44,621 bases of DNA from a virus. The notes beneath the pieces are model-generated. The model saw nothing but the letters and a program-made list of their open reading frames with translations. It did not search any database and had not been told where the DNA came from. The stretch is from positions 1 to 44,621 of the IMG/VR virus record IMGVR_UViG_3300009506_000891. One strand, 5' to 3'. The translations under genes were made by a program, and so were the position numbers. Below are positions 4,407 through 21,304 of this stretch, in pieces. Position 1 is the first letter of the stretch; every line of letters starts with the position of its first letter.

Positions 4407-4407
4407 A

Positions 4408-4692
4408 ATGTCTAATATGTTTGTAGGAGATGTTGGAACAGTAATCAAGCTTAATGCTGGTACTGATATAAGCAGTGCTAGTACCAAGAAGATAAGAGCA
4501 AAGAAACCGGGAGGTACTCTGGTAGAATGGACCGCTGCTTTAGAGGGAACAGATTATTTAACATATACTACCCAAGCAAGTGATATAGATGAATCTGGTA
4601 TTTGGGAATTTCAAATATATGTAGTATTGTCTTCTTGGCAGGGTTACGGTGCTGTTGCAGAACATAGAGTATTAGATCCATTAGCAGCATGA
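4408..4692 (+). CDS. small Ig-like/baseplate-type accessory protein
   Basis: 94-residue protein with a clear ribosome site (GGAGGA at 4394-4399). The pattern resembles small beta-sandwich phage proteins: a GDVGT start, a K-P-G-G turn, then a Y-T-T-x-A-S-D-I-D-x-S-G-x-W stretch near the middle, as in N-terminal domains of BppU-type baseplate proteins. I recognise the style rather than a certain family. It follows the two repeat proteins directly and shares an ATGA junction with the minor head gene, so it may be a partner or cap for the repeat proteins. Function unknown. Confidence 0.6.
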   Translation: MSNMFVGDVGTVIKLNAGTDISSASTKKIRAKKPGGTLVEWTAALEGTDYLTYTTQASDIDESGIWEFQIYVVLSSWQGYGAVAEHRVLDPLAA

Positions 4693-6545: not shown

Positions 6546-6546
6546 A

Positions 6547-6717
6547 ATGGGAAAGAAGGTAGCACCATTTGTAGTAGACTTAGTAGAAGAGTCTTTGAAC
6601 GACGATTGGTTTAATTCTGCTAGGTTGAAGAAAAAAGCAAAGAAAGGTGATAAGGTAGCACAAGAATTATTAGATTTAAAAGAGAATACAAAAATGATAG
6701 AGATGGAGACAGACTAA
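6547..6717 (+). CDS. small charged hypothetical protein
   Basis: 56-residue protein starting MGKKVAPF. An in-frame ATG exists further upstream at 6520 inside the previous gene, but the ATG at 6547 has a purine-rich site (GGAAGGGG, about 6533-6540) at correct spacing, so it is preferred. The sequence is charged, with a helical C-terminal half (K-K-K-A-K-K-G-D-K). No family recognised. It lies between the minor head gene and the protease gene. Confidence 0.6.
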   Translation: MGKKVAPFVVDLVEESLNDDWFNSARLKKKAKKGDKVAQELLDLKENTKMIEMETD

Positions 6718-6719
6718 TA

Positions 6720-8297
6720 ATGCCAATACCTACTCCAAGCAAGGGAGAGAAACAATCAGACTTCGTTTCTAGATGTATGGGAAGTGAAGTAATGAAAAAA
6801 GAATATTCAGATTCTAAACAGAGAGCAGCTATTTGTTACAGTCAATTTAAAAAGAAAAGGACAAACAACCAAATGAATAATAATTTGCAAGTCAAAGTGA
6901 CTTTGTTGGTAAATGAAACTAAGAACATAACATTTAATAATGCTCCTACTACAGTAATTCCTGCTGTACTACTAGTAGAGGGTGTGCATAGTGGAGTAGG
7001 AGCAGGACCGCTTTACTACTCTAGTGATGTACTGGAGAAATATGCCAATGTTTGGAACAAAGCACCAATAACAGTAGGGCATCCTAAAGACGATGATGGA
7101 CAGTATGTACCTTGTGATACTCCAGAAGTTTATGAAAGATGTACGGTAGGAAATGTATTTAATAGTAGATATGCTGATAATAAGATTAAAGCAGATCTAT
7201 ATATAAATACTGCTAAGATAGAAGAACAAGCACCAAACTTTATCAATGATGTACTAAGCTATAAAAACAAAGGCGAAATAAGTACAGGAGTAGTAGCAGT
7301 TGTAGATATGGAAGGTGGTACATGGAATGGAGAAGATTATGAAGGAACTGTTACAGAAATTAGAGGGGACCATCTAGCTTTGCTGCCAAATGATAAAGGA
7401 GCATGTTCTACTTCAGATGGGTGTGGACTACTAAGGAATCAAGCAGCAAAAGAAGATGATAATATAATAAAAGGAATGATAAAACATTTTTTAAGTGGTT
7501 TGCTAGACTATGCAAAGACCGAAGATGGAATGTTCGAGAAGTTGGAGAAGTTAGCTAATGCAGTAAGGTCACAAGCACCACTAGGAACGAGCTTTTGGCT
7601 TGTAGATGCATATAAGGATTATATAGTTTATGAGAGATATAAGGAAGGTGAAGAGAGTAAACTATATAAAGTAAAATACTCTACTACTCAAAACGGTGAA
7701 GTAGAATTTAACGAAGCACCTATTGAGGTGAAAGTTAAAAAAGAATATGTAGAAGTAAAAAACAAAATGAAGAAGGAGGCAATTAATAATATGTGTTGTG
7801 AAGACAGAGTGAATGCATTAATCGCAAACGAGGATACTCCCTATGGGGAAACTGACAAGGAATGGCTTCTTGGCTTGAATGAAGAAGCATTTGCCAAGAT
7901 TGAGGAAACCGCTTATAAACAACCAGATGTACCGGAAACTCCCCCGGCAGAAGGTGGAGAAGAAGGAGGGAAACAGGTGAATAATGAAGAGAAAAAAGTG
8001 ACAATGGAAGATCTTCCAGAAGATGTTCAGAAAACTGTTAGGATTGGTTTGAAAGAGTATGATGCAAAGAAGACAAAGCTGATTACTCTTATTACCGGAA
8101 GTGAGAAGAACAAATTTACAGAGGATCAGCTTAAAGCAAAAGACATTGAAGAACTGGAAGCAATTGCTGCTTTGGTAGAAGCTCCTGTACCGGAAGGTGG
8201 AGAAGCAGACTATAGTGGTAGGTCTGGTGGTGTCTTTAATACTGAAGGAGTAGAACCAATGGCTGTACCTACTCTTGCAGATATGAACAAAGAATAA
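6720..8297 (+). CDS. DUF2213-like prohead protease with C-terminal scaffold region
   Basis: 525 residues. Residues 1-45 match a common phage motif (P-x-P-S-x-G-E, then R-C-M, then Q-R-A-A-I-C-Y). Residues ~80-240 look like the DUF2213 head-maturation protease: G-H-P at 120-122, I-S-T-G at 187-190, G-D-H-L-A-L-L at 216-222 and the following G-A-C. The C-terminal part from about residue 358 is acidic and helical and ends like a scaffold. It lies directly before the capsid genes, as prohead proteases do. The product should cut scaffold and capsid precursors during head maturation. An internal ribosome site and start at residue 358 suggest the scaffold is also made alone (separate entry). Catalytic assignments rest on motif recognition. 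Confidence 0.8.
   Translation: MPIPTPSKGEKQSDFVSRCMGSEVMKKEYSDSKQRAAICYSQFKKKRTNNQMNNNLQVKVTLLVNETKNITFNNAPTTVIPAVLLVEGVHSGVGAGPLYYSSDVLEKYANVWNKAPITVGHPKDDDGQYVPCDTPEVYERCTVGNVFNSRYADNKIKADLYINTAKIEEQAPNFINDVLSYKNKGEISTGVVAVVDMEGGTWNGEDYEGTVTEIRGDHLALLPNDKGACSTSDGCGLLRNQAAKEDDNIIKGMIKHFLSGLLDYAKTEDGMFEKLEKLANAVRSQAPLGTSFWLVDAYKDYIVYERYKEGEESKLYKVKYSTTQNGEVEFNEAPIEVKVKKEYVEVKNKMKKEAINNMCCEDRVNALIANEDTPYGETDKEWLLGLNEEAFAKIEETAYKQPDVPETPPAEGGEEGGKQVNNEEKKVTMEDLPEDVQKTVRIGLKEYDAKKTKLITLITGSEKNKFTEDQLKAKDIEELEAIAALVEAPVPEGGEADYSGRSGGVFNTEGVEPMAVPTLADMNKE
7773..7793 (+). promoter_or_regulatory. internal ribosome site in protease gene
   Basis: AAGGAGG at 7773-7779 lies 11 nt before an in-frame ATG at 7791. 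Its context (AAGGAGGCAATT, then an A/T-rich spacer, then ATG) is almost the same as the leader of the major capsid gene (AAGGAGGCAATTTGGATA before 8825). This is unlikely inside an ordinary coding stretch and decides the nested start. Confidence 0.65.
7791..8297 (+). CDS. nested capsid scaffolding protein (in-frame internal start)
   Basis: Predicted second product of the protease gene, 168 residues, starting at residue 358 (MCCEDRVNAL) and ending at the same stop. It is acidic and mostly helical, with a Pro/Glu/Gly-rich hinge and a segment near the end of the type 'I-T-G-x-x-K-N-K-F-T-E-D-Q-L' seen at the C-terminus of many head protease-scaffold proteins. Lambda C/Nu3 is the known precedent for an in-frame nested scaffold. 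It depends on the internal ribosome site at 7773-7779. Higher expression than the protease would be expected for a scaffold. Not proven from sequence alone. Confidence 0.6.
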   Translation: MCCEDRVNALIANEDTPYGETDKEWLLGLNEEAFAKIEETAYKQPDVPETPPAEGGEEGGKQVNNEEKKVTMEDLPEDVQKTVRIGLKEYDAKKTKLITLITGSEKNKFTEDQLKAKDIEELEAIAALVEAPVPEGGEADYSGRSGGVFNTEGVEPMAVPTLADMNKE

Positions 8298-8327
8298 TTT
8301 AAGATTTAAAGGAGGCATAATTATATT

Positions 8328-8792
8328 ATGACAGTTACTACTATTATTGCTGGTGGAAACGTAGAGTATATTGAAAGAGTTCCGGCAGCAGCTTTCTATC
8401 CGGGGCATTTGCTTGAACTTACTTCTTCAAATACACTCCAGAAACATTCTACTGATGGTGGATCATGTATTCCTGTTATGGTAGCAATTGAGAATGATCT
8501 GGAAGGTGAAGGAGTGACTGATGCTTATGCTACTACTGATAGGGCAAGAGCAGTAATTCCTGCTCCCGGTGCGAAATGCTACTTGAAGGTTAAGATCGGA
8601 GAAAATATTGCCATTGGAGATAAGTTGGTATCTGCTGGTAATGGAGAAGTGAGAGAAGCACACGGTGATTCTTCTGCTGTTGTTATGGAAGAAGACGTTG
8701 TTGCTATTGCTCTAGAAGCAATTGATCTTTCTTCTTCTTCTGCTGGTGCTGCTGCACATCCCTATGGGTTTTGTCTGTGCATGTTTAAATAA
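8328..8792 (+). CDS. capsid-associated (decoration-like) protein
   Basis: 154-residue protein with an excellent ribosome site (AAAGGAGG at 8308-8315), immediately before the major capsid gene. It looks all-beta, with Gly/Val-rich strands, a P-G-x-x-L-E-L stretch near residue 26 and an I-G-D-K-L-V-S-A-G-N-G turn near 106-116, the arrangement seen in DUF2190-like and other capsid decoration or stabilisation proteins. Position between scaffold and capsid supports that role. A trimeric decoration protein on the head surface is the likely function; the family is not certain. Confidence 0.65.
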   Translation: MTVTTIIAGGNVEYIERVPAAAFYPGHLLELTSSNTLQKHSTDGGSCIPVMVAIENDLEGEGVTDAYATTDRARAVIPAPGAKCYLKVKIGENIAIGDKLVSAGNGEVREAHGDSSAVVMEEDVVAIALEAIDLSSSSAGAAAHPYGFCLCMFK

Positions 8793-8824
8793 TTAAATAA
8801 AAATTAAAGGAGGCAATTTGGATA

Positions 8825-9859
8825 ATGGATTATATTCTTAATGGACAAGCCACAGGATCAGTAGCAGAACGGCTTATGGCTACTAATTTCAATATTGGTG
8901 CATTGCGTACATGGAGAGAAAATGATGGTAGATGCTACATGATGAATCAGAATGGAGTAGTTGTTCCTGTAGCAAATGCTACTCTTCGTAGAGATGAATG
9001 GAAGCAGTTTGACGATGCCGTTTTGAAAGCTGCTAGGAATAGGCTAGTGTGTGCAAATACTTTTATTTCTAAAGGTCTGGTGTACAGTATTCCCAATGGC
9101 CTAGGAAAGACCGTATTGCAGTATGAAGATCTCAATGAATTTAATGATGCTTCTCTTGGAATGGACCCACTGCCCACTGCGGTAGAAGATCGTCCGGTCT
9201 GGAGCACGAAGTATATGCCTCTCCCGATTATTTACAAGGAGTTTAGAGTAAATATTCGGCAGTTGGAAGCGTCTAGAACATTGGGTGAACCGTTGGATAC
9301 TACCAGTGCTGAAATGGCAGGAAGAAAAGTAGCAGAGATGGTGGAAGAACTTACTTGTAATGGTTCTTCTAACTTTACTTTTGGTGGTGGAGTACTTTAT
9401 GGTATTAAGGATTTTACGAATGCCAATACTGGATCTCTTACTGCTGATTGGGATGATTCTGCTGCTACTGGTGAAACAATGCTTGCTGATGTACTGGCTA
9501 TGAAACAGGCTTTGATAGATGCCTACCATTATGGACCGTATGGTATCTTCATTCCTACTAACTATGAAACTGCTATTGATGCTGATTTTAAAGCTGCTTC
9601 TGATAAGACTATTCGGCAGAGACTTATGGAAGTAGATGGTATTCAGTTTATTACGGTAGCAGATAAACTTACTGCCGATTATGTTGTTATGTTGCAGTTG
9701 ACGCAGGATGTTATGAGAATGGTAGTTGGTCTTCCTATGACTACTCTTCAGTGGGAGAGCAGAGGTGGTTTGAGCCAGCATTTTATGGTAATGACTATTA
9801 TGCTTCCGCAGCCGAGAGCAGATCAGAATGCTAGATGTGGTATTGTTGTATATCACTAA
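8825..9859 (+). CDS. major capsid protein (HK97-fold, encapsulin-like)
   Basis: 344-residue protein with a strong ribosome site (AAAGGAGG, 8806-8813). The order protease/scaffold, small beta protein, this gene, then connectors identifies it as the major capsid protein. The segment P-L-P-I-I-Y-K-E-F with following R-Q-L-E-A-S-R and T-T-S-A-E-M-A-G-R-K-V is like the encapsulin/linocin-type HK97-fold shell proteins, and a C-terminal beta segment (residues ~300-340) ends the protein. No long N-terminal delta domain is seen, which fits use of a separate scaffold. It assembles the icosahedral head. A perfect hairpin follows the gene, perhaps tuning expression relative to downstream genes. Confidence 0.85.
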   Translation: MDYILNGQATGSVAERLMATNFNIGALRTWRENDGRCYMMNQNGVVVPVANATLRRDEWKQFDDAVLKAARNRLVCANTFISKGLVYSIPNGLGKTVLQYEDLNEFNDASLGMDPLPTAVEDRPVWSTKYMPLPIIYKEFRVNIRQLEASRTLGEPLDTTSAEMAGRKVAEMVEELTCNGSSNFTFGGGVLYGIKDFTNANTGSLTADWDDSAATGETMLADVLAMKQALIDAYHYGPYGIFIPTNYETAIDADFKAASDKTIRQRLMEVDGIQFITVADKLTADYVVMLQLTQDVMRMVVGLPMTTLQWESRGGLSQHFMVMTIMLPQPRADQNARCGIVVYH

Positions 9860-9869
9860 TGTTTAAACT

Positions 9870-9897
9870 AAGTACTCCCCCAATTGGGGGAGTACTT
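9870..9897 (+). terminator. hairpin terminator after major capsid gene
   Basis: Perfect stem: AGTACTCCCCC at 9871-9881 and its complement at 9886-9896, with an extra A-T pair outside, a four-base AATT loop and then TTTAAAAAGG. The U tract is short, so it may terminate only partly or protect the 3' end of the capsid message while letting late transcription continue. Confidence 0.7.
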
Positions 9898-9913
9898 TAA
9901 AAAGGAGAAAAAA

Positions 9914-10402
9914 ATGGCTAACAAAAGAACTTATAGAGTAAAGAAGGGATATGGACCACACCAGATTATAATAGCTGGTGAAGGTACATCAAAAGCAGTA
10001 AGAGCAAAGATCTACCCCGGTGAAACATTCAATGATTTTCCAGATAGTAGGAATGTACAGGGTTGGGAGTTTAAATTAGAAGTAATTTCTGGTGGTGTGT
10101 TGGTTGACCATGAGATAGTAAGACAAGAAGTAGAAGTAGAAGAAACAAAAGATGCTGCTGCATTAAGGAAGATAAGTAGGGGTTCTAATAGATTTGATGT
10201 AGTTAATGAGGATACAGGAGAAAAATTAAATAATCGGCTTCTTAGTAGTAAAGAAGCTGATGAACTTATAAATATGGGAGCACCAGAAAAACCAACAGTA
10301 GAAGTAGGGGGCAAGGATGAAGAAGAAAAAGAAGAGGAAGAACAAGAAGAAAAAATTGCAAGCGGTGCTGAGAGTAAAAAACGTAGGCAAAAGATAGAAT
10401 AA
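9914..10402 (+). CDS. hypothetical protein after capsid
   Basis: 162 residues beginning MANKRTYRVK. The start at 9914 is chosen because AAAAAGGAG precedes it at good spacing; an upstream in-frame ATG at 9884 lies inside the terminator hairpin. Residues 1-70 look like a small beta domain (K-K-G-Y-G-P-H-Q, then Y-P-G-E-T-F); residues ~105-125 hold a short R-L-L-S-S-K-E-A-D-E-L-I helix; the tail is very acidic (E-E-E-K-E-E-E-E-Q-E-E) followed by basic residues. The position fits a head-tail joining or accessory head protein. It ends overlapping the next start (TAATG). No family recognised. Confidence 0.6.
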   Translation: MANKRTYRVKKGYGPHQIIIAGEGTSKAVRAKIYPGETFNDFPDSRNVQGWEFKLEVISGGVLVDHEIVRQEVEVEETKDAAALRKISRGSNRFDVVNEDTGEKLNNRLLSSKEADELINMGAPEKPTVEVGGKDEEEKEEEEQEEKIASGAESKKRRQKIE

Positions 10403-11040
10403 TGAATGTCGATAAGAAAAGGAGATTTCTCCCTCCTAAAATATGGGAGGGAGAAACAGTCTATGTAATAGGTGGTGGACCTAGCTTAAAACAATCTCCA
10501 CTACACCTAATACATGATAGAAGAGTATTAGGTGTAAATGATGCATTTAAACTTGGTACTTGGGTAGATGCTTGTTACTTTGGAGATTGTAAATGGTGGG
10601 GATGGAATAGAGAAGAGTTTTTAAAATATCCCGGATTACGGATGACTTCTTGCCAACGTCTATATCATTTATATGTAGTAAAGATATGGAAGAGGGGGAA
10701 ACCAAAAGGAGTAGAAACAAAACCGGGTTTTATATCATGGAATGGGAATAGTGGAATGTCAGCAATAAATGTTGCCTACCACTTTGGAGCAAAGAAGATA
10801 GTACTACTAGGTTTTGATATGCAGGGGAAGAAAGATCATAAAGGAGTAGTAACTTTTAACTGGCATAACTATCATAAAAGTCCTCCTGTTCCACACGCAT
10901 ATAAAAGTAGATATTTACCATGTATGCATACAATAGTAGAAGATTTGAAAGCATTGAAAGTAGAGATTGTAAATGCTTCAGAAGAAACAGCAATAGATCC
11001 ATTAATAGTTCCTAGGGTTAGATTGGAAGATACGTTATGA
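10402..11040 (+). CDS. DUF115/GT42-like transferase
   Basis: 212 residues. It has the nucleotide-sugar type N-terminal motif V-I-G-G-G-P-S-L-K at 22-30, a G-V-N-D-A-F at ~43-48, a central I-S-W-N-G-N-S-G stretch and a K-K-I-V-L-L-G-F-D-M segment. This combination is typical of the DUF115/MptE-like proteins and of the GT42 sialyltransferase fold, in which G-P-S-L binds the nucleotide. It is the first gene of a five-gene cassette of sugar, acyl and sulfo transferases lying between capsid and connector genes. Donor and acceptor are unknown; modification of virion or host glycans is an inference. It overlaps the next gene by 4 nt (ATGA). Confidence 0.6.
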   Translation: MNVDKKRRFLPPKIWEGETVYVIGGGPSLKQSPLHLIHDRRVLGVNDAFKLGTWVDACYFGDCKWWGWNREEFLKYPGLRMTSCQRLYHLYVVKIWKRGKPKGVETKPGFISWNGNSGMSAINVAYHFGAKKIVLLGFDMQGKKDHKGVVTFNWHNYHKSPPVPHAYKSRYLPCMHTIVEDLKALKVEIVNASEETAIDPLIVPRVRLEDTL

Positions 11041-11576
11041 TAGGTAAAAATGTAAAGATAGGAATGAATGTAGTAATAGGACATAATACAGTAATAGAGG
11101 ATGGTTGTATTATTGGGGATGGTGTTTTTATAGGTCATAATTGTGTACTTAGACCAGAAACAATAGTAGGGAAGAGAACGAAGATAGGGCATAATACAGT
11201 AATAGAAGGATGGTTGACAATAGGAGAAGATTGTTTCATTCAAGCACAATGCAACATAACAAAGGGAATGAATATAGGAGATAAAGTATTTATAGGACAG
11301 ATGGTAGTTTCTGGTAATGATAAACGAATGGTACATTTGAGAAGAGAAACCGCACCATTTAATCCTACTCCTCCTACAGTAATGTATGGAGCAAGAATTG
11401 GAATGGGTGCTTTACTACTACCGGGATGTGTTGTTGGCAGAGAAACATTTATAGGAGCAGGAGCAGTAGTAGTAGGCAAGTGTAATGACTATGGAGTATA
11501 TGTTGGTAATCCAGCTAAATTTATGGAAGAAATTCCATCAAACGAAAGGTTAGACAAAAATGGCAAATCTAGCTGA
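11037..11576 (+). CDS. left-handed beta-helix (hexapeptide) acyltransferase
   Basis: 179 residues made largely of hexapeptide repeats ([LIV]-G-x-x-x-x) from residue 2 to about 160: I-G-K-N-V-K, I-G-M-N-V-V, I-G-H-N-T-V, I-G-D-G-V-F and so on. An external loop near residues 95-118 carries a His and ends P-P-T-V-M-Y-G, and the C-terminus has G-V-Y-V-G-N-P-A-K, the standard end of WbbJ/WlbB-type O- or N-acetyltransferases. The likely reaction is acetyl or acyl transfer from CoA to a sugar amine or hydroxyl. Its neighbours are transferase genes, so it probably works on the same glycan. Overlaps the following gene by 17 nt. Confidence 0.8.
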   Translation: MIGKNVKIGMNVVIGHNTVIEDGCIIGDGVFIGHNCVLRPETIVGKRTKIGHNTVIEGWLTIGEDCFIQAQCNITKGMNIGDKVFIGQMVVSGNDKRMVHLRRETAPFNPTPPTVMYGARIGMGALLLPGCVVGRETFIGAGAVVVGKCNDYGVYVGNPAKFMEEIPSNERLDKNGKSS

Positions 11577-12297
11577 AAAACAAATAGTAAACTTTGTAGT
11601 AACACTTAAATCTGGTGGAGATTTTGAAGAGTTTGATGCTATTACACTTTGTAGACAAGTGAAGAAGCATTTATTAATACCACATAGATTTATTTGTTAT
11701 ACTGATTTAGAAATTGACTACCCATACATGGAAACAATTAAATTACAGAAAAATCTTCCCGGCTGGTGGAGCATGATAGAAATGTTCCGAACAAAGGGAC
11801 CAACAATTGCTTCTGGTCTTGATATGTTGGTAGTAGATAATATAGATAGATTGGGAGAGATTGCTTTAACTTGTCCAGAAGATGTTTTCTATATGGCTGA
11901 ACCACAAGCACTAGCAAAGAATAGAGGAGAGAAGTTTTGTTCTGGTTTACAGATTTGGAATGGTAATTGGACTTGGTTATTCAAGATGTTTAAAGAAGAA
12001 GATTTTAAATATAAGATGGAGCAGAGATATACTTATAATAAACTAGAAGAAAGACGATTTAAAATAAAAACAGTACAAAGTGTTTTTGATGGGTACTATA
12101 GTTTTAAACATCATTGCAAGTTTGGAAGAAAACCAAAAGATGCTAGAGTAATACTGTTTCATGGTAAACCTAGAATTAAAGAATGTGGAGTAGGTTGGGT
12201 ACAGAAGATCTACAGAGAAACAGAAGAACCACCACATCCTTTTGAGATAATGGCAAAGGAGCAGGAAGATGTTAGATCTGATGAAGAAATACTATAG
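11560..12297 (+). CDS. GT-A-like glycosyltransferase
   Basis: 245 residues. It follows the plan of small GT8/GT-A-like transferases: a start strand (I-V-N-F-V-V-T-L), H-R-F-I-C-Y-T-D at 42-49, L-P-G-W-W-S-M-I-E-M-F at ~66-76, G-L-D-M-L-V-V at 86-92 in place of the usual D-x-D core, and a late strand V-I-L-F-H-G-K-P-R whose His is commonly a metal or nucleotide ligand. The metal motif is L-D rather than a clear D-x-D, so activity is not certain. Start ATG has GAAAGG upstream and overlaps the previous gene. It is third in the glycan cassette. Confidence 0.6.
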   Translation: MANLAEKQIVNFVVTLKSGGDFEEFDAITLCRQVKKHLLIPHRFICYTDLEIDYPYMETIKLQKNLPGWWSMIEMFRTKGPTIASGLDMLVVDNIDRLGEIALTCPEDVFYMAEPQALAKNRGEKFCSGLQIWNGNWTWLFKMFKEEDFKYKMEQRYTYNKLEERRFKIKTVQSVFDGYYSFKHHCKFGRKPKDARVILFHGKPRIKECGVGWVQKIYRETEEPPHPFEIMAKEQEDVRSDEEIL

Positions 12298-13000
12298 AAC
12301 CTGTTCTGTTAATTTGTTAGTAGACTATGCTATGACTTATGCTAAAACTGAAGCACAAATCAATATTGCAAAAGCCTACTGTTGTGAAGTAGCAATTCTT
12401 ATTCCATTAACTCTTAGGAAGGAGGAGGTACAGGAAGAAGCTTGTCTACTACTTCCTAGAGAAAACTATATAGCAGATTTTATTCGTTATCACAATGAAG
12501 TAAATAGAGACAAGGATCATAGAGCAGATATGATTGATGCAGAATATATCCATCCTACAGCATCTATTGGTAATGAAGGAATGCGATATGCAGTGTATAA
12601 ACCAAAGAGCAGTAAAAATGAATTAGTGGGTTTAAAACACATGGGAAGTGTTGTTTTGAAAAAGGGAGTAGTAGTAGGAGCAAACTCTACTATTGCTAGG
12701 GCTACTTTGGATTATACAGTAATAGGAAGTCAAACTAAAATAGGTTGTGGTGTGCATATAGGACATAATGTAAGAATAGGAAACAGAAATATTATTACTG
12801 ATGGAACAGTAATAGGTGGATCTGCATTAATAGGAAATGATTGTTTTATAGGATTAAATTCTACTATTAGAAATGGTATTCATATCTGTAGTAAAGTATT
12901 TATAGGTATGGGATCTGTAGTAGTTAAGAATATAGATGAACCGGGCGTTTATGCAGGGAATCCAGCAGTATTTAGAAAAGAATGGAATGGTGACTTCTAA
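12269..13000 (+). CDS. LpxD-like hexapeptide acyltransferase
   Basis: 243 residues. Residues 1-110 form a non-repeat domain; from ~112 to 232 there is a left-handed beta-helix of hexapeptides (I-G-S-Q-T-K, I-G-C-G-V-H, I-G-H-N-V-R, I-G-N-R-N-I, I-G-G-S-A-L). I-H-P-T-A-S-I-G at ~93-100 and I-G-H-N-V-R-I-G are typical of LpxD and other sugar N-acyltransferases, where the His acts as base, and the ending G-V-Y-A-G-N-P-A-V matches the WbbJ group. It is the second acyltransferase of the cassette, so two different acylations, or two positions, are likely. Start overlaps the previous gene by 29 nt, with AAAGGA about 8 nt upstream. Confidence 0.75.
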   Translation: MLDLMKKYYRTCSVNLLVDYAMTYAKTEAQINIAKAYCCEVAILIPLTLRKEEVQEEACLLLPRENYIADFIRYHNEVNRDKDHRADMIDAEYIHPTASIGNEGMRYAVYKPKSSKNELVGLKHMGSVVLKKGVVVGANSTIARATLDYTVIGSQTKIGCGVHIGHNVRIGNRNIITDGTVIGGSALIGNDCFIGLNSTIRNGIHICSKVFIGMGSVVVKNIDEPGVYAGNPAVFRKEWNGDF

Positions 13001-13704
13001 TGAAAGATAAACCTATACTAATAACTGGATGTGCTAGAAGTGGAACTTCTCTTACCGCAGGGATAATAAGTAGATGCGGAGCATGGGGAGGAGAAGTAGT
13101 TGGTAGCACTCCCAATAATCAGAAAGGACAATATGAAAATACTGCTATCCGAAATAAAGTAATTAAACCATATTTAAAAAGTATAGCAGTAGATCCAATG
13201 GGGCAGAATCCATTACCTCCTATTGATAGAGTTACTTGGGATGCAAATGGTAGTATGGAGATATGTAATAGACACAAGAAAGAAGTAATGGATATTTTAT
13301 ATAGACAAGGGTATGATGGTAAATCGGTGTGGTTCTTTAAAGGAGCAAAGCTTTGTTTGATCTATCCTATATGGGTTAGAATGTTTCCAGAAGCAAAATG
13401 GGTTTTGGTTAGAAGAGATGACTATGATATTTGTTCTTCTTGTTTAAAGACTTCTTTTATGAGAGCATTCAATAAAAGAAATGGTTGGATGGTTTGGATA
13501 AATGAACACAAGAAGAGATTTGCAGAAATGAAGATGTTAAGTATAGATCTAATAGAGTATTGGCCATTTAAAGCTATCAATGGTGACTTTACTGGAACAG
13601 AAGAAATGATAAAACATTTAGACTTGGAATACCACAAAGAAGAAATAGAAGATTTTGTATCTCCTAAACTCTGGCATTATAAAGAAGAAGGAGGAGTAAA
13701 ATGA
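13000..13704 (+). CDS. sulfotransferase-like P-loop protein
   Basis: 234 residues. G-C-A-R-S-G-T-S at 10-17 is the 5'-phosphosulfate loop of PAPS-dependent sulfotransferases, and V-L-V-R-R-D-D-Y-D-I-C-S-S at 135-147 is the 3'-phosphate site with its Arg and Ser. A G-Q-Y-E-N segment near 43-47 fits the substrate-side loop of bacterial sulfotransferases. The expected reaction is transfer of sulfate from PAPS to a hydroxyl, most likely on a sugar given the cassette. It is the last gene of the cassette; the next gene, a connector, overlaps it by 4 nt, so the cassette is co-expressed with structural genes. Confidence 0.75.
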   Translation: MKDKPILITGCARSGTSLTAGIISRCGAWGGEVVGSTPNNQKGQYENTAIRNKVIKPYLKSIAVDPMGQNPLPPIDRVTWDANGSMEICNRHKKEVMDILYRQGYDGKSVWFFKGAKLCLIYPIWVRMFPEAKWVLVRRDDYDICSSCLKTSFMRAFNKRNGWMVWINEHKKRFAEMKMLSIDLIEYWPFKAINGDFTGTEEMIKHLDLEYHKEEIEDFVSPKLWHYKEEGGVK

Positions 13705-14063
13705 CAAATTATGTAACTGGTGCTGATGTATTGGAGATAATGGATACAGATTTGACTTCTGCACAATTAGATCCATTTTGTGAAGTAGCAAATTCAATAG
13801 TAACAGAGAAACTAACTGGAATACATGCTGCCGAAAGATTGAAGAATATTGCTAGATGGTATGCAGCACATCTAGTATCATGTACTCCATTGGCAAGGGA
13901 AGCAGTATCAGAGAAGATAGGAGATGCACAAGCTACCTATAGTGGGCAAACGTGGAAAGGTTTGGAGGGTACTATGTATGGGCAGCAAGTATTACTACTA
14001 GATACTTCTGGTATATTAGCACAAACAGGAAAGAAGACTTGTTCCTTTGAGGTGATAAATTGA
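13701..14063 (+). CDS. head-tail connector (adaptor, DUF4054-like)
   Basis: 120 residues with a strong ribosome site (GGAGGAG just upstream). The N-terminal part is all-helical (V-L-E-I-M-D near 10-15, then a long helix ending A-A-H-L-V-S). Then come E-K-I-G-D-A-Q-A-T-Y-S and G-L-E-G-T-M-Y-G-Q, a pattern typical of gp6-like/DUF4054 head completion proteins that form a ring below the portal. It is first in the standard connector set that precedes the tail-tube gene. Confidence 0.7.
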   Translation: MTNYVTGADVLEIMDTDLTSAQLDPFCEVANSIVTEKLTGIHAAERLKNIARWYAAHLVSCTPLAREAVSEKIGDAQATYSGQTWKGLEGTMYGQQVLLLDTSGILAQTGKKTCSFEVIN

Positions 14064-14419
14064 GTGCTTTAATTAATAGGATGAAGAGGAAGTATAAACA
14101 GACAGCGGTCTATTGGGCGACTTCTACTAATAGTGGGTATGGTGAAACATATGATGCACCAGTAGAGATTGATTGTAGATGGGAAGATAAAGAAAAGTTG
14201 TTGATAGGTTTAGATGGAGAAGAGAAAATGTCTACTGCTAAAGTTTTTACTAACTCTACCTTGGCAATAGATGGTTTCCTGTTCTTAGGAGATTTAGATG
14301 ATTTATCATCTTCTACTGCTGGTCCTAGAGATGTAGCAGCATCTAGAAAGATAATAGGAACAGGAAAGATACCAGATCTATTAGGATCTGATTTTATAAA
14401 GTTCTATTATTTGGAGTAG
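14060..14419 (+). CDS. head-tail stopper-like protein
   Basis: 119 residues using a TTG start (TTGA overlap with the previous stop, GAGGTG upstream); an ATG at residue 8 is an alternative. Mostly beta: V-Y-W-A-T-S near 17-22, Y-D-A-P-V-E-I-D-C-R-W-E-D-K near 31-44, and a late R-K-I-I-G-T-G. This matches small SH3-like stopper proteins (lambda FII/SPP1 gp16 class) by length, place and style. It would close the portal channel and bind the tail. Family-level call is based mainly on position. Confidence 0.6.
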   Translation: MSALINRMKRKYKQTAVYWATSTNSGYGETYDAPVEIDCRWEDKEKLLIGLDGEEKMSTAKVFTNSTLAIDGFLFLGDLDDLSSSTAGPRDVAASRKIIGTGKIPDLLGSDFIKFYYLE

Positions 14420-14423
14420 TAGA

Positions 14424-15008
14424 ATGGTACAGCAAACAAAAATAATAGAGTGGAAGGGAATAGAAGAAACTATTAAGAATATTAATAGTGAGATTAAGAA
14501 GATCAATAATAGAACGGCTTCTGGTTTAATTAGTGCTGCTCTTTATATTAAAGGAGAAGCAGTGCAGATTTGTCCAGTAGTAACTGGTAATTTGCAGAAT
14601 AGTGCATATGTTATTGGTCCTGCTCCTAGTGGTTGGATGGAAAAAGCAATAGTAGCAGAAGGAGGAATACCAAATAATTTTCATGGTACAAGCCAACAAG
14701 CAGAAAAAGCTAGAGTAGATCATAATGCTGCTGTACAAGAGTCAAAACAAATTGTTGGAAATTCTTCTATACTAATGTCTGTAATAGGTTTTTCTGCTTC
14801 TTATGCTGCTTTTGTACATGAGAATCCTAGAGCTGGTAAGACAGGAGGGCAAAGTCCTACAGGAAAGATATATAAACCCGAGAAGGGAAGTAAAAGAAAG
14901 GTTTATAGTACAAGAAAAGCCGGTAGGTGGAAGTTTTTAGAAGAACCTTTAGTGAAGCATAAGAAAAAGATACTAGACACTATAAAAAAGAAAGCTGAAA
15001 TAAAATGA
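14424..15008 (+). CDS. HK97 gp10-like neck/tail-completion protein
   Basis: 194 residues. It begins with a helical part and carries I-K-G-E-A-V-Q-I-C-P-V-V-T-G-N-L near 43-58, the typical 'A-x-x-x-x-P-V-x-T-G-x-L-x-x-S' signature of the HK97 gp10 / minor capsid group, followed by Y-A-A-F-V-H-E-N near 127-134. Proteins of this type lie between stopper and tail terminator and help join head and tail. An insertion between the two motifs (residues ~75-110) makes it longer than usual. The C-terminus is basic. Confidence 0.7.
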   Translation: MVQQTKIIEWKGIEETIKNINSEIKKINNRTASGLISAALYIKGEAVQICPVVTGNLQNSAYVIGPAPSGWMEKAIVAEGGIPNNFHGTSQQAEKARVDHNAAVQESKQIVGNSSILMSVIGFSASYAAFVHENPRAGKTGGQSPTGKIYKPEKGSKRKVYSTRKAGRWKFLEEPLVKHKKKILDTIKKKAEIK

Positions 15009-15397
15009 ATCCAGCATCAAAAGATTTATTGAATTGGTTAGATACTTCTGGTTTATTTACTTTTGGTACAGATCTATTTATAGGATCTATGCCAGATGTG
15101 CCGGATGAATGTATATGCATATATGATTCTGGTGGAGGTAGACCATTTCCAGATGCAAGTAGAGTAGATGAATTTCCTAGAGTGATGATAGAAGTTAGAG
15201 GGAAGATTAACCAATATGAAGAATCTTATGCACTATGTAGAAGTATTACTACTGCTCTACATGGAAAGCATAATGTAACTATAGGAGGTACTAGATATAT
15301 ATCTGTTTTTCAAGTTTCTGAACCTATCAATCTAGGTCAGGATGATAGAGGTAGATATAAGTGGAGTATTAATTTTGAGATAAATAGAACAGAGTAA
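15005..15397 (+). CDS. tail terminator protein
   Basis: 130 residues, overlapping the previous gene by ATGA. The layout (helix, then I-G-S-M-P-D-V-P-D near 26-34, strand with Y-D-S-G-G, R-V-M-I-E-V-R-G, a helix, then the end strand Y-K-W-S-I-N-F-E-I) is typical of the phage minor capsid/tail-terminator family, which caps the tail tube and binds the connector. It comes immediately before the tail-tube gene, as expected. Confidence 0.7.
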   Translation: MNPASKDLLNWLDTSGLFTFGTDLFIGSMPDVPDECICIYDSGGGRPFPDASRVDEFPRVMIEVRGKINQYEESYALCRSITTALHGKHNVTIGGTRYISVFQVSEPINLGQDDRGRYKWSINFEINRTE

Positions 15398-15419
15398 AAA
15401 GGAGGCTTGTTTTTAAGTT

Positions 15420-15842
15420 ATGACTACAAATGCAATTAGTGGTGTCGGTGCATCATTTAAAAGAGGTGATGGAACAAGTAATGAAAGCTTTACGGCAGTA
15501 GCAGAAGTAAATAGTATTTCTGGTCCTAGTATGTCAAGAGCTTTCATTGATGTTACTTCCCTAGATTCTGCTGGAGGTTATCGGGAATTTATCAGTGCTT
15601 TCAGAGATCCCGGTGAAGTATCACTAGTAATGAACTTTACACACCAAGGTTATGAAGACATGAAGGATGATTTTGATACAGATACTTCTGTAAATTATCA
15701 AATTGTCTTACCTGATTCTGCTGCTACTACTTTGGAATTTGCTGCTTATGTTACTGATCTACCGTTGGATGTTCCTTTGGATGATAAGATTACTATTAAT
15801 GTTACGTTAAAAGTTTCCGGTGCAATCAGTGTAAGTTCATAA
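15420..15842 (+). CDS. major tail tube protein
   Basis: 140 residues with a strong ribosome site (AAAAAGGAGG). An all-beta protein with V-G-A-S-F-K-R-G-D near 9-17, I-D-V-T-S-L-D near 43-49 and G-A-I-S-V-S-S at the end, matching tube proteins of the lambda V/HK97 type. It lies between the tail terminator and the chaperone pair. It forms the hexameric rings of the non-contractile tail; no sheath gene follows, which supports a siphovirus. Confidence 0.8.
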   Translation: MTTNAISGVGASFKRGDGTSNESFTAVAEVNSISGPSMSRAFIDVTSLDSAGGYREFISAFRDPGEVSLVMNFTHQGYEDMKDDFDTDTSVNYQIVLPDSAATTLEFAAYVTDLPLDVPLDDKITINVTLKVSGAISVSS

Positions 15843-15889
15843 TAACAATTTAATGAAAACAAACGGCATTTCTTAAAAAGGAGAAAAAC

Positions 15890-16300
15890 ATGGAAGACGA
15901 GAAAAAAACGGAAGAAGTAGAAATAGTAGAAGCAAAGGTTAAGATTTTAACCAAAGATGAAATATTTAATGTACAAGATGTAGTGAGTGAATTAGTAGAA
16001 GTTCCAGAGTGGGGAGGAAGTGTTTGGGTATATGGTTTAACAGCAAAGGAACGTGATGCCTTTGAGGAAACTATGATTACTACTGGTAAAGGTAGAAATA
16101 CTAAAAGGAATCTCGCAAATCTAAGAGCTAGGCTTTGTGCAAGGTGTATTAGAAATGAAAATGGGAAAAGGATTTTTAAAGGAGAAGATATAGAGAAACT
16201 AGGAGAGAAGTCTGGTAAAGCTATCAATAGAGTATTTGAGGTAGCACAAAGACTTTCTGGTATGACTGATGATGATGTAGAAGAACTAGTGGGAAACTGA
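15890..16300 (+). CDS. tail assembly chaperone G
   Basis: 136 residues, acidic N-terminus and helical body (K-E-R-D-A-F-E-E near 52-59, then L-A-N-L-R-A-R-L-C-A-R-C-I near 75-87). The ending G-M-T-D-D-D-V-E-E-L is common in G-type chaperones. It precedes the tape measure and ends at a TGA directly after a GGGAAAC heptamer, where a fraction of ribosomes should slip to make the longer GT form. It binds the tape measure during tail assembly and is not part of the finished tail. Ribosome site AAAAAGGAG lies upstream of 15890. Confidence 0.85.
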   Translation: MEDEKKTEEVEIVEAKVKILTKDEIFNVQDVVSELVEVPEWGGSVWVYGLTAKERDAFEETMITTGKGRNTKRNLANLRARLCARCIRNENGKRIFKGEDIEKLGEKSGKAINRVFEVAQRLSGMTDDDVEELVGN

Positions 16301-16340
16301 TACTCCGACCAGAACGAATATTCTACCATCGACTGGCCGG
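16291..16340 (+). promoter_or_regulatory. programmed -1 frameshift site with hairpin
   Basis: The heptamer GGGAAAC occupies 16291-16297 in the register G-GGA-AAC with TGA immediately after. Both tRNAs can re-pair after a -1 slip (GGA to GGG, AAC to AAA). A stem of CCGACCAG (16305-16312) with CTGGCCGG (16333-16340), one mismatch and a 20-nt loop, starts 7 nt after the slip site, the usual distance for a stimulator. Lambda uses GGGAAAG at the same place. Confidence 0.85.
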
Positions 16341-16689
16341 GCATTTAGGGATGACAGTAGATGAAATGCTTTCTAGAATGTCTGCTAAAGAATTAAAGTA
16401 TTGGAAAGCATTTCATCTACTCGAACCTTTTGGTCCTAGAGAAGAATTAAGAAGAACAATTATGATAGTGTGTACAATTCTTAATACTACTCCACAAAAG
16501 AAAGGATCAAACAAAGTATATAAGGTAGAAGATTATTTACCGGACTTAGAAGAATTAGAAAAACAATTTTTTGAAGTACCGGAAGAGAGCATGGCAAAAG
16601 CTAGAGAAGCACTTAAAGCATTTGCCAAGGATGTAAATGAAAGCCATAAGAATAAACAGAAGAGAATAAAAAGAGTGAGGCGTAAATAG
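16297..16689 (+). CDS. tail assembly chaperone T domain, made as GT fusion
   Basis: After the -1 slip, reading continues from base 16297 without a stop to 16689, adding 130 residues to give a 266-residue GT protein. The segment before the first ATG (16351) is already coding: L-R-P-E-R-I-F-Y-H-R-L-A-G-H-L-G, followed by M-T-V-D-E-M-L and S-A-K-E-L, a pattern typical of T domains. The ATG at 16351 has no good ribosome site, so separate translation is unlikely. The domain ends in a Lys/Arg-rich tail. GT is thought to recruit tail-tube protein to the tape measure. Confidence 0.8.
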   Translation: MILRPERIFYHRLAGHLGMTVDEMLSRMSAKELKYWKAFHLLEPFGPREELRRTIMIVCTILNTTPQKKGSNKVYKVEDYLPDLEELEKQFFEVPEESMAKAREALKAFAKDVNESHKNKQKRIKRVRRK

Positions 16690-16691
16690 CA

Positions 16692-19600
16692 GTGGCTACT
16701 ATAGGAAACCTGATAGCTAAATTAGGAGTAGATAATACCCAATTTGTCAAAGGGATGAAACAAGCTGTAGGATCAGTTAATCAACTAGAAGCTACTACTG
16801 GTGCTACCGCAAAGTCTTCTATGGGATGGGTTACAAAGCTAAAGTCACATTGGCTACTGGCATTAGCAGCGGTTACTACTGCTATACACACATTTAGAAA
16901 AGCAATTGATCTTATAAAGGAGTCTACTCTATTAGCTGCTAGGGAGGAGGTGCTAGATGTAGTTCTGGAACGAATGGGGCAAACAGCAGGACACACTTCA
17001 AAGGAATTGTATGAAGTAGTAGAATCTCTAGAAAAGCTAGGTATTACTTCTACGCAAGCAAGGCAAAATACTATTAGAGCAATGCAAGCGCAAATAGATT
17101 TTACTGATGCTACCAAGCTTGCAAGGATAGCACAAGATGCAGCAGTAATTGCTAACATGGATTCTTCTGCTGCTTATGAACAATTAATTTATGGTCTACA
17201 AACTGGACAGATTAGAGTACTACGGACAATGGGTTTAAATGTTAGCTTTGAGCAGTCATATCAAAAGCTAGCAGATAGTATGAATAAAACTACTGATGAA
17301 TTAAATGATAATGAAAGGATGCAAGCAAAATTAAATGCTGTATATGAACAAGCAGTAGCTATACAAGGATCATATGAAGCAGCAATGACTAAAGCAGGGA
17401 AGCAATTACTTTCCATGCGTAGGTATATAGAAAATCTTAAAACTGAATTTGGAAAAGCTTTTTTAGCAGGATTTTCTAAAGCTGTTATGGGTACAACAGA
17501 AGCATTAAAAGATCTTACTGATATGGTAAAAGGAACTGCATTAAGAAGTATGATTTCAAATATAGCAGAATCCTTTGGAGAATTATATGTAGGCTTAACT
17601 AGAATAGTATCCATATCAGCAAGAGTAGTAGGTGCTTTTGATAATATAATTACTAGACTTTTTGGTTTAAGTAAAGCTGAAGAAGATGCAGAAGAAAAAG
17701 GCGAAACTTTTATACAGTCTGTATTAGATAGAATGGGATATGTAAACCAATTTCTAAAAGCAATAGAAACTTTGTATAAAATTACTGATAGGGATGTGCT
17801 CTTTCTAATAGATGAAGGACAATTAACCATGCTTGAAGCTGCTACTATGTCTACTGAAGAGTTAGCTAAAGCAATGGAAGACTATGAAAAAAACATACGA
17901 AAAATTACTATTGAAAAAGAAATATCAAAAGTAGTAACTGAATTAGACAAACTGAAAGCTAGAACTGATAGTGGTTTTTGGAGGTGGGTATTTGGTGTTC
18001 CTATTGAAGAAGATGAAAAAAGAATAGGGGAATTACAAAAGAAATTATCAGTATTGAGAGAACAACTAAAAGAAGCAAAGCCAGTAAAGACTATGGCTGA
18101 AAGTGCAGAAGAAGTAGCAAATACTTTTAATGCTGTTGCAGATGGTTTAGAAAATGTTGCAGTACAAACGCAAACACTAGCCGATATCAAGTTTGGTGAT
18201 GAAGCAAAGGGAATATTACTTGGTGGTTTCTTTAAAGAAGCATCTCTACAAACAGATCGTTTTTCTTCTTCCTTAGATGATTTGGAAGACTCTTTAAAAG
18301 GTGTAGGAGAAGAAGCAGAAGTTGCAGGTAAGGAGATTAGTAACATCATTAAAGATCTTGATAGTTTTGAATTAAAAATTCCTACTCTTAGTGATATTAA
18401 ATTTAGTACAGATTTACAGAAGAGTGTTCAAGAAGCATTCTTTCCAGAAGCAGGATTTAAAGATGTAGAAGCATCTTTTGAAAGAACTACAGAGGCAATG
18501 AGTGAAGATATAGAAGTAAATGTAGGAATGAAGTATGAGGAAACTCTAGAAAACTGTGATATAGCGAATAAAATATTTTTAGAAAGAGTGCAGAATGCTA
18601 CAGCAGATGTCTACTATGATATTTTTAGAGGGCAGTTAAACACATTTGAAGATTTTGCTGATAGGATGTTGGATTACTTCATTAGAACACTTGCAGAAAT
18701 GGCAGCAGCTAGTAGTCAAATGAATATCTTCCAAGGTTTGCTTGGTGGTCTTACTGGTGGTATCACTGGTGGATGGGCTAGTGGTGGATTATTAGGAGCA
18801 ATAGGAGGTGGACTTAAAGGACTTTGGACTGATATAATTTCTTTTGGTGGGAATCTGTGGAGTACTGGAAAGAATATGTTGAATGGTCTAGGTGATCTAC
18901 TAGGTTTGAGTGGAAAAATACTAGACGGTTTTACTGGTTTGGGAATGGGTTTTGGAGTAGGAAAAATAGGACAAGCATTAGGAATCTTCAAAGAAGACAG
19001 CTTTGCTGATCTTGGTGCTTCTATCGGTGGTGCTATAGGATCAGCAATACTTCCCGGCATTGGTAGCTTTTTAGGATCTTTAGGAGGTGGTCTTCTTGGT
19101 TCTTTGTTTGGTGGTGGAGGAAAACCAAATACTACTATAGGTCCATTTACAGAGAACAGAACAGAGAAGTGGGGTAGTGATTTACTATCCGGTACTGTAC
19201 AGTGGCATAAGGATAGGTGGGCAGAAGATTCTTGGCAAGTACAGGGAGCAGAAGCATTACATGATATAGTAAATGCAGCAGCAGAGGAAGTCTACCAGCT
19301 TGCAGATCAAACTATAGCTGCATTGCCAGATGAATTTGGAGATATGTTAAAAGATAAGTTAGCTGGTAGTAATATAGAATTTAGTACTAAGGGGATGAAG
19401 CTAGATCTACAAGGTGATCTGGATGCACAAGCTACCCAATGGGCAGAGATGGTGCAGAAGGATATGATAGCAGTATTTAATAGTGCCTATGAACAAGTAA
19501 GAAGAGTATTTGTTACTACTAATGTAAATGAGATGGTAAGAAGTACAGGAATAAAGGGAAGAAGTCTAGGCTATGTAGATGCTTCTAACCTAATTGCTGC

Positions 19601-20891: not shown

Positions 20892-20902
20892 GAGGCGAAA
20901 GT

Positions 20903-21304
20903 ATGGCAGCAAAGACTATGAAAGATTATTTATCTGCTGATACGGCAGATTATACTGGTGATACTCTAACTCTACAACCACAAGAAGTAATAGAAGAAGA
21001 AGGTTATAAAAATATAATTACCCATGAATATGATGATGGATCTGAAAGTAGTATAGCCTTGTCTAATGCTTCTATATTTTTTGCTACTTTGCGGTGGGAT
21101 CATATGTCGGCTGCTGATGCTGGTACTATAATGGAGTTCTATCATAATAGCAGTAAAGCTAATGGGACAGCAAGAAGTATTCAGTGGACACATTATGATG
21201 GAAATACATATGTAGTAAAGTTTGTTGGAAGACTCCCAAGGAGTTTTGGTAGATATGCCCATTCTGTTTCTATCAAATTTAAAGTGTTAGGCTATGTATC
21301 ATAA
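20903..21304 (+). CDS. minor tail protein (lambda M-like distal tail)
   Basis: 133 residues directly after the tape measure. The C-terminal half is beta-rich, with F-F-A-T-L-R-W-D near 59-66, a helix with A-A-D-A-G-T-I-M-E-F-Y-H, and then Y-V-V-K-F and a V-S-I-K-F-K-V-L-G ending that resembles the lambda M / distal tail protein style. It probably forms the ring at the lower end of the tail tube. TAATG overlaps with the next gene, so the two are probably translated together. Confidence 0.55.
   Translation: MAAKTMKDYLSADTADYTGDTLTLQPQEVIEEEGYKNIITHEYDDGSESSIALSNASIFFATLRWDHMSAADAGTIMEFYHNSSKANGTARSIQWTHYDGNTYVVKFVGRLPRSFGRYAHSVSIKFKVLGYVS

Follow-up and report, generated by a model that had tools for sequence, protein, structure and literature searches.

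A capsid-adjacent, exchangeable locus of predicted sugar-modifying enzymes in tailed phages as a candidate virion glycosylation system

The window analyzed in this study is the virus record IMGVR_UViG_3300009506_000891, taken over its whole length of 44,621 bases, and the element of interest is a run of five genes on the plus strand (positions 10402 to 13704) encoding a predicted DUF115/GT42-like transferase, two hexapeptide acyltransferases, a GT-A-fold glycosyltransferase (GT), and a sulfotransferase of the 3'-phosphoadenosine 5'-phosphosulfate (PAPS) type. Sequence comparison identifies these genes as one state of a conserved, capsid-adjacent, exchangeable locus carried by a large group of phages, most of them uncultured. 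The best reading, to which we assign a probability of about 0.62, is that this is an exchangeable virion glycosylation locus whose product is located on the virion; that judgment rests on where the genes lie, on the predicted fold, and on finding none of the tested export genes rather than on chemistry. The initial annotation of this DNA had described five overlapping genes amid capsid and connector genes, and the intact open reading frames (ORFs) and family matches agree with that description, but the term "five-gene cassette" proved to be too narrow, as the edges of the locus are conserved and its middle is exchanged.

Conservation of the capsid-adjacent slot

Loci were collected from IMG/VR by a scan anchored on the capsid gene and were therefore not selected for sugar genes. 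The scan yielded 490 relatives among 512 candidates; the best 80 of the 490, nearest the query, were taken, and the 79 loci that were kept were clustered at 95% capsid identity into 58, with 55 having at least 600 bp past the capsid gene. A DUF115 gene was present in all 55 of these nonredundant contigs, in two of them (loci L165 and L166) after the first connector gene, Conn1. Among the 40 contigs that extend to the connector gene, DUF115 lies before the connector in 38, with 0 to 10 genes between, and a sulfotransferase gene occurs in 31, being the last gene before the connector in 30/40. In L148, the sole exception among the 31 representatives, four ORFs (117, 767, 126, and 92 amino acids) separate the sulfotransferase from Conn1. 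The capsid-to-connector interval of the 40 loci varies from 332 to 9604 bp (median, 4217), and 32 different gene arrangements are found there, with the minimal forms being DUF115-sulfotransferase-connector (L154) and DUF115-connector (L120 and L153). ORFs were called mechanically as the longest frames of at least 60 amino acids, a procedure that overlooks short genes and makes gene counts approximate; many of the contigs are incomplete, and a virus may be represented by more than one record (the map of L178 is that of L162).

A sulfotransferase-anchored alignment scan of viral contigs gave 163 relatives among 228 candidate stretches, and the best 80 of the 163, nearest the query, were kept. 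Conn1 was present in 88 of the 91 loci then in the set, duplicates included, and was the next gene after the sulfotransferase for 75 of the 90 distinct sulfotransferases with a following gene. The five families occur in matching order in three other loci, L002 and L006 (with BLASTP identities of 39 to 52%) and L123. All three carry an additional ORF ahead of the sulfotransferase; this ORF has a weak methyltransferase match in L123 and is methyltransferase-like by eye in the other two. In L006, genes 1 and 2 are fused. The recurrence of five families in order in these three loci is more than would be expected by chance, and the exact set without the added ORF was found, among the loci examined, in this virus only. 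The initial annotation had proposed a search for the same order and had named a lack of conservation of the cassette, together with the absence of a glycan on virions or host surface, as refuting its idea; the search found the slot conserved in 55/55 contigs, and that part of the refutation failed.

The capsid scan of genome contigs added 10 loci from metagenome-assembled genomes (MAGs), seven of which run past the capsid gene, six with DUF115. One of the MAG-set loci (L171) is part of a Zixiibacteriota chromosome record of 3.7 Mb, and other relatives lie in MAG contigs labeled as other phyla. When 7.9 kb surrounding the five genes was compared with the phage collection at the DNA level, no match was obtained. 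Four isolates with distant capsids, namely, StAshley (40% identity), Hardycor1 (31%), K1M (28%), and Mannheimia phage 587AP2 (25%), share the capsid, protease, and decoration profiles with the group of the window.

Predicted enzymes of the locus

Gene 1 (P0001; 10402 to 11040, plus strand; 212 amino acids) forms the 5' edge of the island. It matches PHROG 4603, which carries the annotation name "alpha-2,3-sialyltransferase," at an E value of 7.9e-33 over residues 23 to 212, and its sole NCBIfam match, to the 3-deoxy-D-manno-octulosonic acid (Kdo) transferase WaaZ, is weak (E value, 3e-4; 20.2 bits versus a cutoff of 200). An AlphaFold2 model built from 29 phage sequences has a predicted local distance difference test (pLDDT) score of 93.5. 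In a VIA structural comparison, this model was closest to the Maf protein of Magnetospirillum (5mu5; Z score, 15.5; 184 residues; root mean square deviation, 3.4), aligning to residues 257 to 510 of the 632-residue chain, which is the central Maf_flag10 domain with a GT42-like fold; the next matches were CstII (1ro8; Z score, 12.2), Cst-I (11.6), and an archaeal HPPK (MptE-type) enzyme (11.1). A profile search (alignment A7) also matches CstII, at an E value of 8.9e-5 over 127 positions. The labeling of gene 1 as DUF115/GT42-like fits the PHROG profile and the structural likeness to Maf and CstII; the modeled fold points to transfer of a cytidine monophosphate (CMP)-activated sugar, and the protein would appear to work like Maf without being a Maf protein. 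Residues D62, G118, G137, and D139 are kept in 91/91 distinct DUF115 sequences, N46 in 90/91, and H155 in 85/91, and these six are candidate active-site residues. BFVD holds 24 viral models at E values of 0.001 or below, several of them named MptE-like, from uncultured phages, and the fold of gene 1 as such is therefore not new in phages. In L006 (2920 to 4089), the DUF115 protein and the first hexapeptide acyltransferase form one fused protein of 389 amino acids.

Gene 2 (11037 to 11576, plus strand; 179 amino acids) encodes a hexapeptide transferase (E value, 2.6e-26) closest to sugar acyltransferases of the WxcM/QdtC/NeuD type. Gene 4 (12269 to 13000, plus strand; 243 amino acids) has a hexapeptide match (E value, 3.7e-15) and a divergent N-terminal part; it is closest to the C-terminal part of LpxD, and its match to the LpxD model TIGR01853 covers residues 93 to 240 only, with 120.3 bits, below the equivalog cutoff of 242.5. 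Among the matches listed, neither protein passed a curated NCBIfam cutoff, and the two acyltransferase labels given earlier hold at the level of the hexapeptide families. Gene 3 (P0003; 11560 to 12297, plus strand; 245 amino acids) has no Pfam match at an E value of 1 and matches the glycosyltransferase family PHROG 1962 at 4.8e-22; one record was found with it in the phage collection. Its model (pLDDT, 93.2) has a GT-A fold, as had been proposed from the letters of the sequence, and is near GT6/GT8 enzymes, with Foldseek matches to 4fqw (E value, 8e-7) and glycogenin 1zcu (2.1e-6); among the 50 matches listed, E values range from 8e-7 to 1.1e-5 and template modeling scores by query range from 0.44 to 0.59. 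The second Asp of the DxD motif is present in 105/105 distinct sequences of the family, and the first position is Asp in 77/105 and Gly in 28/105, including the window.

Gene 5 (P0005; 13000 to 13704, plus strand; 234 amino acids) forms the 3' edge and matches Sulfotransfer_3 (PF13469) at an E value of 4.2e-6 with 27.6 bits, above the cutoff of 27, in keeping with its label. R13, S14, and R139 are kept in 94/94 distinct sulfotransferases and S147 is kept in 92/94; we take these residues to belong to the PAPS-binding motifs. The sulfotransferase profile found nothing among PDB sequences at an E value of 0.1, and gene 5 had no match in the phage collection at 1e-3. The function of phage sulfotransferases has been called unclear in the pertinent part of one account (PMC10580990).

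Exchange of the middle genes

Across 99 loci with a complete interval, not deduplicated, the middle of the island contains 106 protein families, 57 of which occur in one locus only. The shared middle content (Jaccard index) is 0.94 for pairs with capsid identities of at least 90%, 0.82 at 80 to 90%, 0.39 at 70 to 80%, and 0.06 to 0.21 below 70%; many close pairs therefore have a common island, and exchange is found in some. In one such pair (L051 and L087), the flanking genes match, with identities of 80% for the capsid, 63% for DUF115, 79% for the sulfotransferase, 80% for the terminator, 78% for the tail tube, 68 to 69% for the first two connectors, and 40% for the third, and the genes that lie between DUF115 and the sulfotransferase have no BLAST match in common save for one 60-amino-acid stub. 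L053 and L054 likewise match in capsid (89%), DUF115 (73%), GT (48%), and sulfotransferase (60%), with eight middle genes unmatched.

Pfam families were tallied for 178 of 213 representatives of unlabeled island ORFs, chosen by hand with small and out-of-island ORFs dropped. Among the families listed, methyltransferase models were the most common (up to 15/91 and 11/87 members), followed by GT2 (9 and 8) and radical SAM (9 and 7) and, further, by epimerases, short-chain dehydrogenases, Polysacc_synt_2, transketolase halves, and additional sulfotransferases. The ratio of nonsynonymous to synonymous change in the DUF115, acyltransferase, GT, and sulfotransferase genes was 0.03 to 0.25 in seven partly overlapping pairs of relatives in which synonymous change is unsaturated, which points to sequence constraint. 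An alignment scan of viral contigs with the GT gave 3 loci, this virus included, and the GT counts consequently rest on iterative profiles within the fetched loci. NUMOD3 motifs, which are known from homing endonucleases, were seen in 3/91 island proteins of relatives (alignment A8), and the proteins that carry them are a possible means of island exchange.

Probable site of action and candidate acceptor and donor

Families were searched for in 34 hand-chosen longer virus records of 23 to 89 kb, which may be fragments, so that absences are weak evidence. Neither the flippase family PF01943 nor the initiating transferase family PF02397 was found in any of the 34 (controls were positive in 13/14 and 9/14 genomes, respectively), and the integrase family PF00589 was found in two. 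By a simple hydropathy rule, applied without a proper positive control, 387/389 distinct island proteins of about 100 amino acids or more have no membrane segment. As these two families, the sole export families tested, gave no match and membrane segments are few, the acceptor of the island enzymes is probably cytosolic, and the cytosol is also the compartment in which the heads and tails of phages are put together; export of a polysaccharide and serotype conversion of lysogens fit poorly.

A possible acceptor other than the capsid protein is the small head protein orf9884 (9914 to 10402, plus strand), whose ORF is listed from a TTG at 9884 and has an ATG at 9914 preceded by AGGAG. A protein of this type, with an acidic linker, follows the capsid gene in most loci examined, and a C-terminal motif, written by eye and post hoc, matches 61 of the 75 distinct copies, which include truncated ones, versus 23 of 2188 background ORFs. 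Profile searches found no homolog in the four cassette-free isolates, and a 118-amino-acid protein of StAshley resembles the N-terminal part of orf9884 by eye. A role of orf9884 as an acceptor or docking protein is speculative.

With respect to the donor, Maf enzymes O-glycosylate Ser/Thr residues of flagellin, their donors are CMP-ulosonic acids, and two of them accept both CMP-N-acetylneuraminic acid (CMP-Neu5Ac) and CMP-Kdo, according to the relevant portion of PMC11339370. The family CTP_transf_3 (PF02348) was found in 4/34 records, and a profile search of all loci examined identified KdsB-like proteins at E values below 1e-20 in 10 loci (L145, 4736 to 5467; L105, 4037 to 4768; L128, 1679 to 2440; and L096, L098, L099, L101, L122, L144, and L161). 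The gene immediately precedes the portal gene in 9/10 of these loci, with one small ORF intervening in L105, and is identical in L144 and L145; it is present in 6/27 capsid-set representatives in which the portal gene is preceded by 700 bp or more. Of the four records with a CTP_transf_3 match, L145, L105, and L186 pass the TIGR00466 kdsB cutoff, and L128 is below it and passes the kdsB subfamily model NF003952. These findings are suggestive of Kdo as the donor sugar. A 462-kb uncultured phage (LR756500.1) encodes homologs of both DUF115 (near 212 kb) and KdsB (near 130 kb).

Comparison with other phages and described systems

DUF115 matches at an E value of 1e-3 occur in 54 records of the phage collection. 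In D3, one small gene separates the DUF115 gene from the capsid gene upstream; the DUF115 frame (L180, 5813 to 6409) can start before the annotated orf7 start at 5951, beside orf6.5, with a tblastn match from 5837, and the annotated start looks too late. D3, PAJU2, IME307, and D14O have a methyltransferase among the genes of the connector region, and the annotation of D14O also includes a GT9 gene. Virus S20 has the order terminase, portal, protease, two hypothetical genes, and a pair of DUF115 genes accompanied by glycosyltransferase and methyltransferase genes, and L008, from another lineage, has the order terminase, portal, morphogenesis gene, 96-amino-acid ORF, DUF115, sulfotransferase, and protease. 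Thus, D3, PAJU2, and D14O (Detrevirus) and S20 resemble the window group in having DUF115 after capsid or connector genes with a methyltransferase nearby, and D14O and S20 also have a gene annotated as a glycosyltransferase; they differ in belonging to other capsid lineages and in having no sulfotransferase match in the phage collection at 1e-3. The capsid family profile of the window found no match in the D3 and PAJU2 stretches.

Variable sugar-gene islands are known around maf genes. Maf-dependent flagellin glycosylation shares with the proposed system a GT42-like fold and, as stated in the portion of PMC11339370 concerned, a structural protein acceptor that is later assembled into a filament, but gene 1 corresponds to the central domain only (Maf_flag10, pfam01973) and belongs to a phage head operon with a sulfotransferase edge and no NeuB match. 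Virion glycosylation is known in mycobacteriophages, with glycans on the C termini of capsid and tail tube proteins (Freeman et al. 2023, as cited in passages of PMC12619734 and PMC11256854); however, these passages mention neither DUF115 nor a sulfotransferase and place the glycosyltransferase genes of Maravista near the 3' end of the genome. Pelagimyophages have a hypervariable region with several glycosyltransferases, but this is a host recognition cluster in the tail fiber region, which the authors, in the section concerned, read as modifying the host O chain (PMC7029224). The initial annotation knew of no described phage system with this combination. Among the papers listed in searches of the open-license PubMed Central literature, we found no account of this capsid-adjacent, exchangeable, sulfotransferase-edged locus; DUF115 genes beside head genes are, on the other hand, annotated in D3 and PAJU2 (named sialyltransferase by similarity), and virion glycosylation is already known from the accounts of mycobacteriophages cited above.

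Proposed pathway and alternative explanations

We suggest that the DUF115/GT42-like enzyme would act first, in the host cytosol, transferring a CMP-activated ulosonic acid to a protein of the virion. The sugar would be Kdo or resemble sialic acid and, in this virus, would come from the host; the acceptor may be the capsid protein or the product of the small gene beside the capsid gene. The GT-A enzyme would next attach a further sugar, the two hexapeptide enzymes would then acylate an amino sugar, and the sulfotransferase would finally put on sulfate from PAPS; relatives would retain the first step and usually the last and swap the middle genes, giving rise to an altered glycan. Virion glycosylation is favored because the island sits in the head operon, with DUF115 in every capsid-anchored locus that runs far enough and the sulfotransferase generally last before the connector; because gene 1 is Maf-like and Maf O-glycosylates flagellin; because KdsB-like genes, which could furnish the donor, occur in 10 loci; because the island proteins look cytosolic, with few membrane segments and neither of the two export families in the 34 records; and because the candidate active-site residues are kept, the edges are conserved with exchange between them (as in L051 and L087), and DUF115 lies by head genes in D3, PAJU2, S20, and L008. 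The construction of an acylated, sulfated glycan, as first proposed, fits the enzyme families; of the two destinations then offered, virion modification is the better, given where the genes lie, the resemblance that gene 1 bears to a protein O-glycosyltransferase, and the absence of membrane and export genes, and no evidence was found for receptor mimicry.

Several observations weigh against virion glycosylation. We infer the virion glycan, including its donor, acceptor, linkage, product, and benefit, from the gene data. The match of gene 1 to the Pfam family MptE-like/DUF115 (PF01973; E value, 3.8e-6; 27.2 bits) is below the cutoff of 34.6, and the protein is classed as DUF115-like only. A Foldseek search of the PDB with its model gave no match below an E value of 0.001, and the leading weak rows included several human sialyltransferases intermixed with unrelated folds; Maf and CstII ranked first in the VIA comparison only and not in plain Foldseek. 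At 212 amino acids, the protein is also too short for the three-domain architecture of Maf and is without the two outer domains. The sulfotransferase is absent from 9/40 connector-reaching loci, and one MAG locus (L173) has a sulfotransferase without DUF115. In the four isolates with distant capsids, no profile match to DUF115, the GT, either acyltransferase, or the sulfotransferase was found in the stretch around the capsid gene. DUF115 lies elsewhere in some phages: after tail genes, with sugar transferase and methyltransferase genes and not by the capsid gene, in CcrColossus, where it is gp126; between tail and lysis genes in Domovoi; between lysis and terminase genes in phiNP; and with no annotated head gene nearby in Eowyn (DUF115, hypothetical gene, methyltransferase) and JK004. 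NeuB (PF03102) was found in 0/34 records, and the 76-kb twin contig gave no match to PF02348, so that the donor in the window virus would have to come from the host.

Of the alternatives, the one that survives best, although we consider it unlikely, is that the enzymes remodel the host surface (lipopolysaccharide [LPS] or capsule) during infection, blocking superinfection or aiding release, with the place in the head operon reflecting late expression only. Pelagimyophage glycosyltransferases have been read in this way in the section of PMC7029224 that discusses them, and two of the genes have likenesses among LPS enzymes, gene 4 to LpxD and gene 1, weakly, to WaaZ. Against this, neither of the export families tested was found in the 34 records, the island proteins are almost without membrane segments, and the position by the capsid and connector genes is fixed; the scarcity of integrase makes lysogen conversion unlikely for most of these viruses. 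Cytosolic enzymes could still modify lipid A-core precursors before export. The idea of a moron-like cargo locus whose product, a metabolite either soluble or linked to lipid, has nothing to do with the virion is less probable again: the radical SAM proteins, transketolase halves, short-chain dehydrogenases, and many methyltransferases of the island recall secondary-metabolite clusters, but the conserved transferase edges, the overlap with head genes, and the presence of DUF115 in all 55 contigs argue for a core late function. We regard it as very improbable that the DUF115-like protein no longer has transferase activity and serves as an assembly factor, as DUF115 is accompanied by sugar enzymes in most loci and the candidate active-site residues are kept in 85 to 91 of 91 distinct sequences, even though neither a sulfotransferase nor any other island gene accompanies it amid the head genes of L120, L153, and the loci with the order Conn1-DUF115-Conn2 (L163, L165, L166, and L168). 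Modification of phage DNA by the glycosyltransferases, for which virus-encoded DNA-hypermodifying enzymes offer a precedent (Pyle et al. 2024, as referenced in a passage of PMC12619734), is equally improbable, with the genes lying in the virion operon, apart from the replication genes of the other half of the window, and the fold of gene 1 suggesting CMP-sugar transfer.

A more elaborate version of virion glycosylation, which we offer tentatively and at less than even odds, is that of a "capsid serotype" locus carried by a large group of tailed phages, most of which are uncultured. A conserved ulosonic acid transferase would start a glycan on a virion protein, a sulfotransferase would usually end it, and the middle genes would be exchanged in the manner of O-antigen genes, so that close relatives would have different sulfated or methylated coats, with some adding kdsB beside the portal gene to secure CMP-Kdo. 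If this is true, a widespread phage group would diversify its particle chemistry by swapping gene cassettes beside the capsid gene, a mirror image of bacterial surface sugar variation. A putative function would also emerge for phage sulfotransferases and for DUF115 genes like those of CcrColossus and D3.

Gene layout and other features of the window

The left part of the window is a rightward virion operon comprising head morphogenesis, protease, decoration, major capsid, and small protein genes, the five genes of the island, and connector, terminator, and tail genes; the replication genes occupy the opposite half on the minus strand. A twin IMG/VR contig of 76,009 bases is 100% identical over window positions 2402 to 21701, the portion compared. 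The decoration protein is encoded at 8328 to 8792. The major capsid gene (8825 to 9859, plus strand; profile matches to DUF6260 and PHROG 771) lies two genes upstream of gene 1, with one small gene intervening. Downstream, on the plus strand, are a connector gene (DUF4054; 13701 to 14063), a head-tail connector ORF (14060 to 14419), an ORF without a PHROG match (14424 to 15008), and a connector/tail terminator ORF (15005 to 15397). The five island ORFs are intact and overlap each other and both neighbors by 1 to 29 bases, and for this reason, they are probably translated together with the head operon.

At the left edge of the window (1 to 4406) are two tandem, mutually related large ORFs made of short repeats (668 amino acids, at the record edge, and 799 amino acids), which precede a 94-amino-acid ORF and the head morphogenesis gene; the edge ORF is 833 amino acids long in the twin record (L092, 682 to 3183). 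Their phmmer matches are confined to loci of the same virus, nothing indicates a terminase identity for the ORF at 2007 to 4406, and the two are possible head fibers. On the minus strand, positions 34755 to 37385 encode an 876-amino-acid DNA polymerase A with an N-terminal domain of the uracil-DNA glycosylase superfamily.

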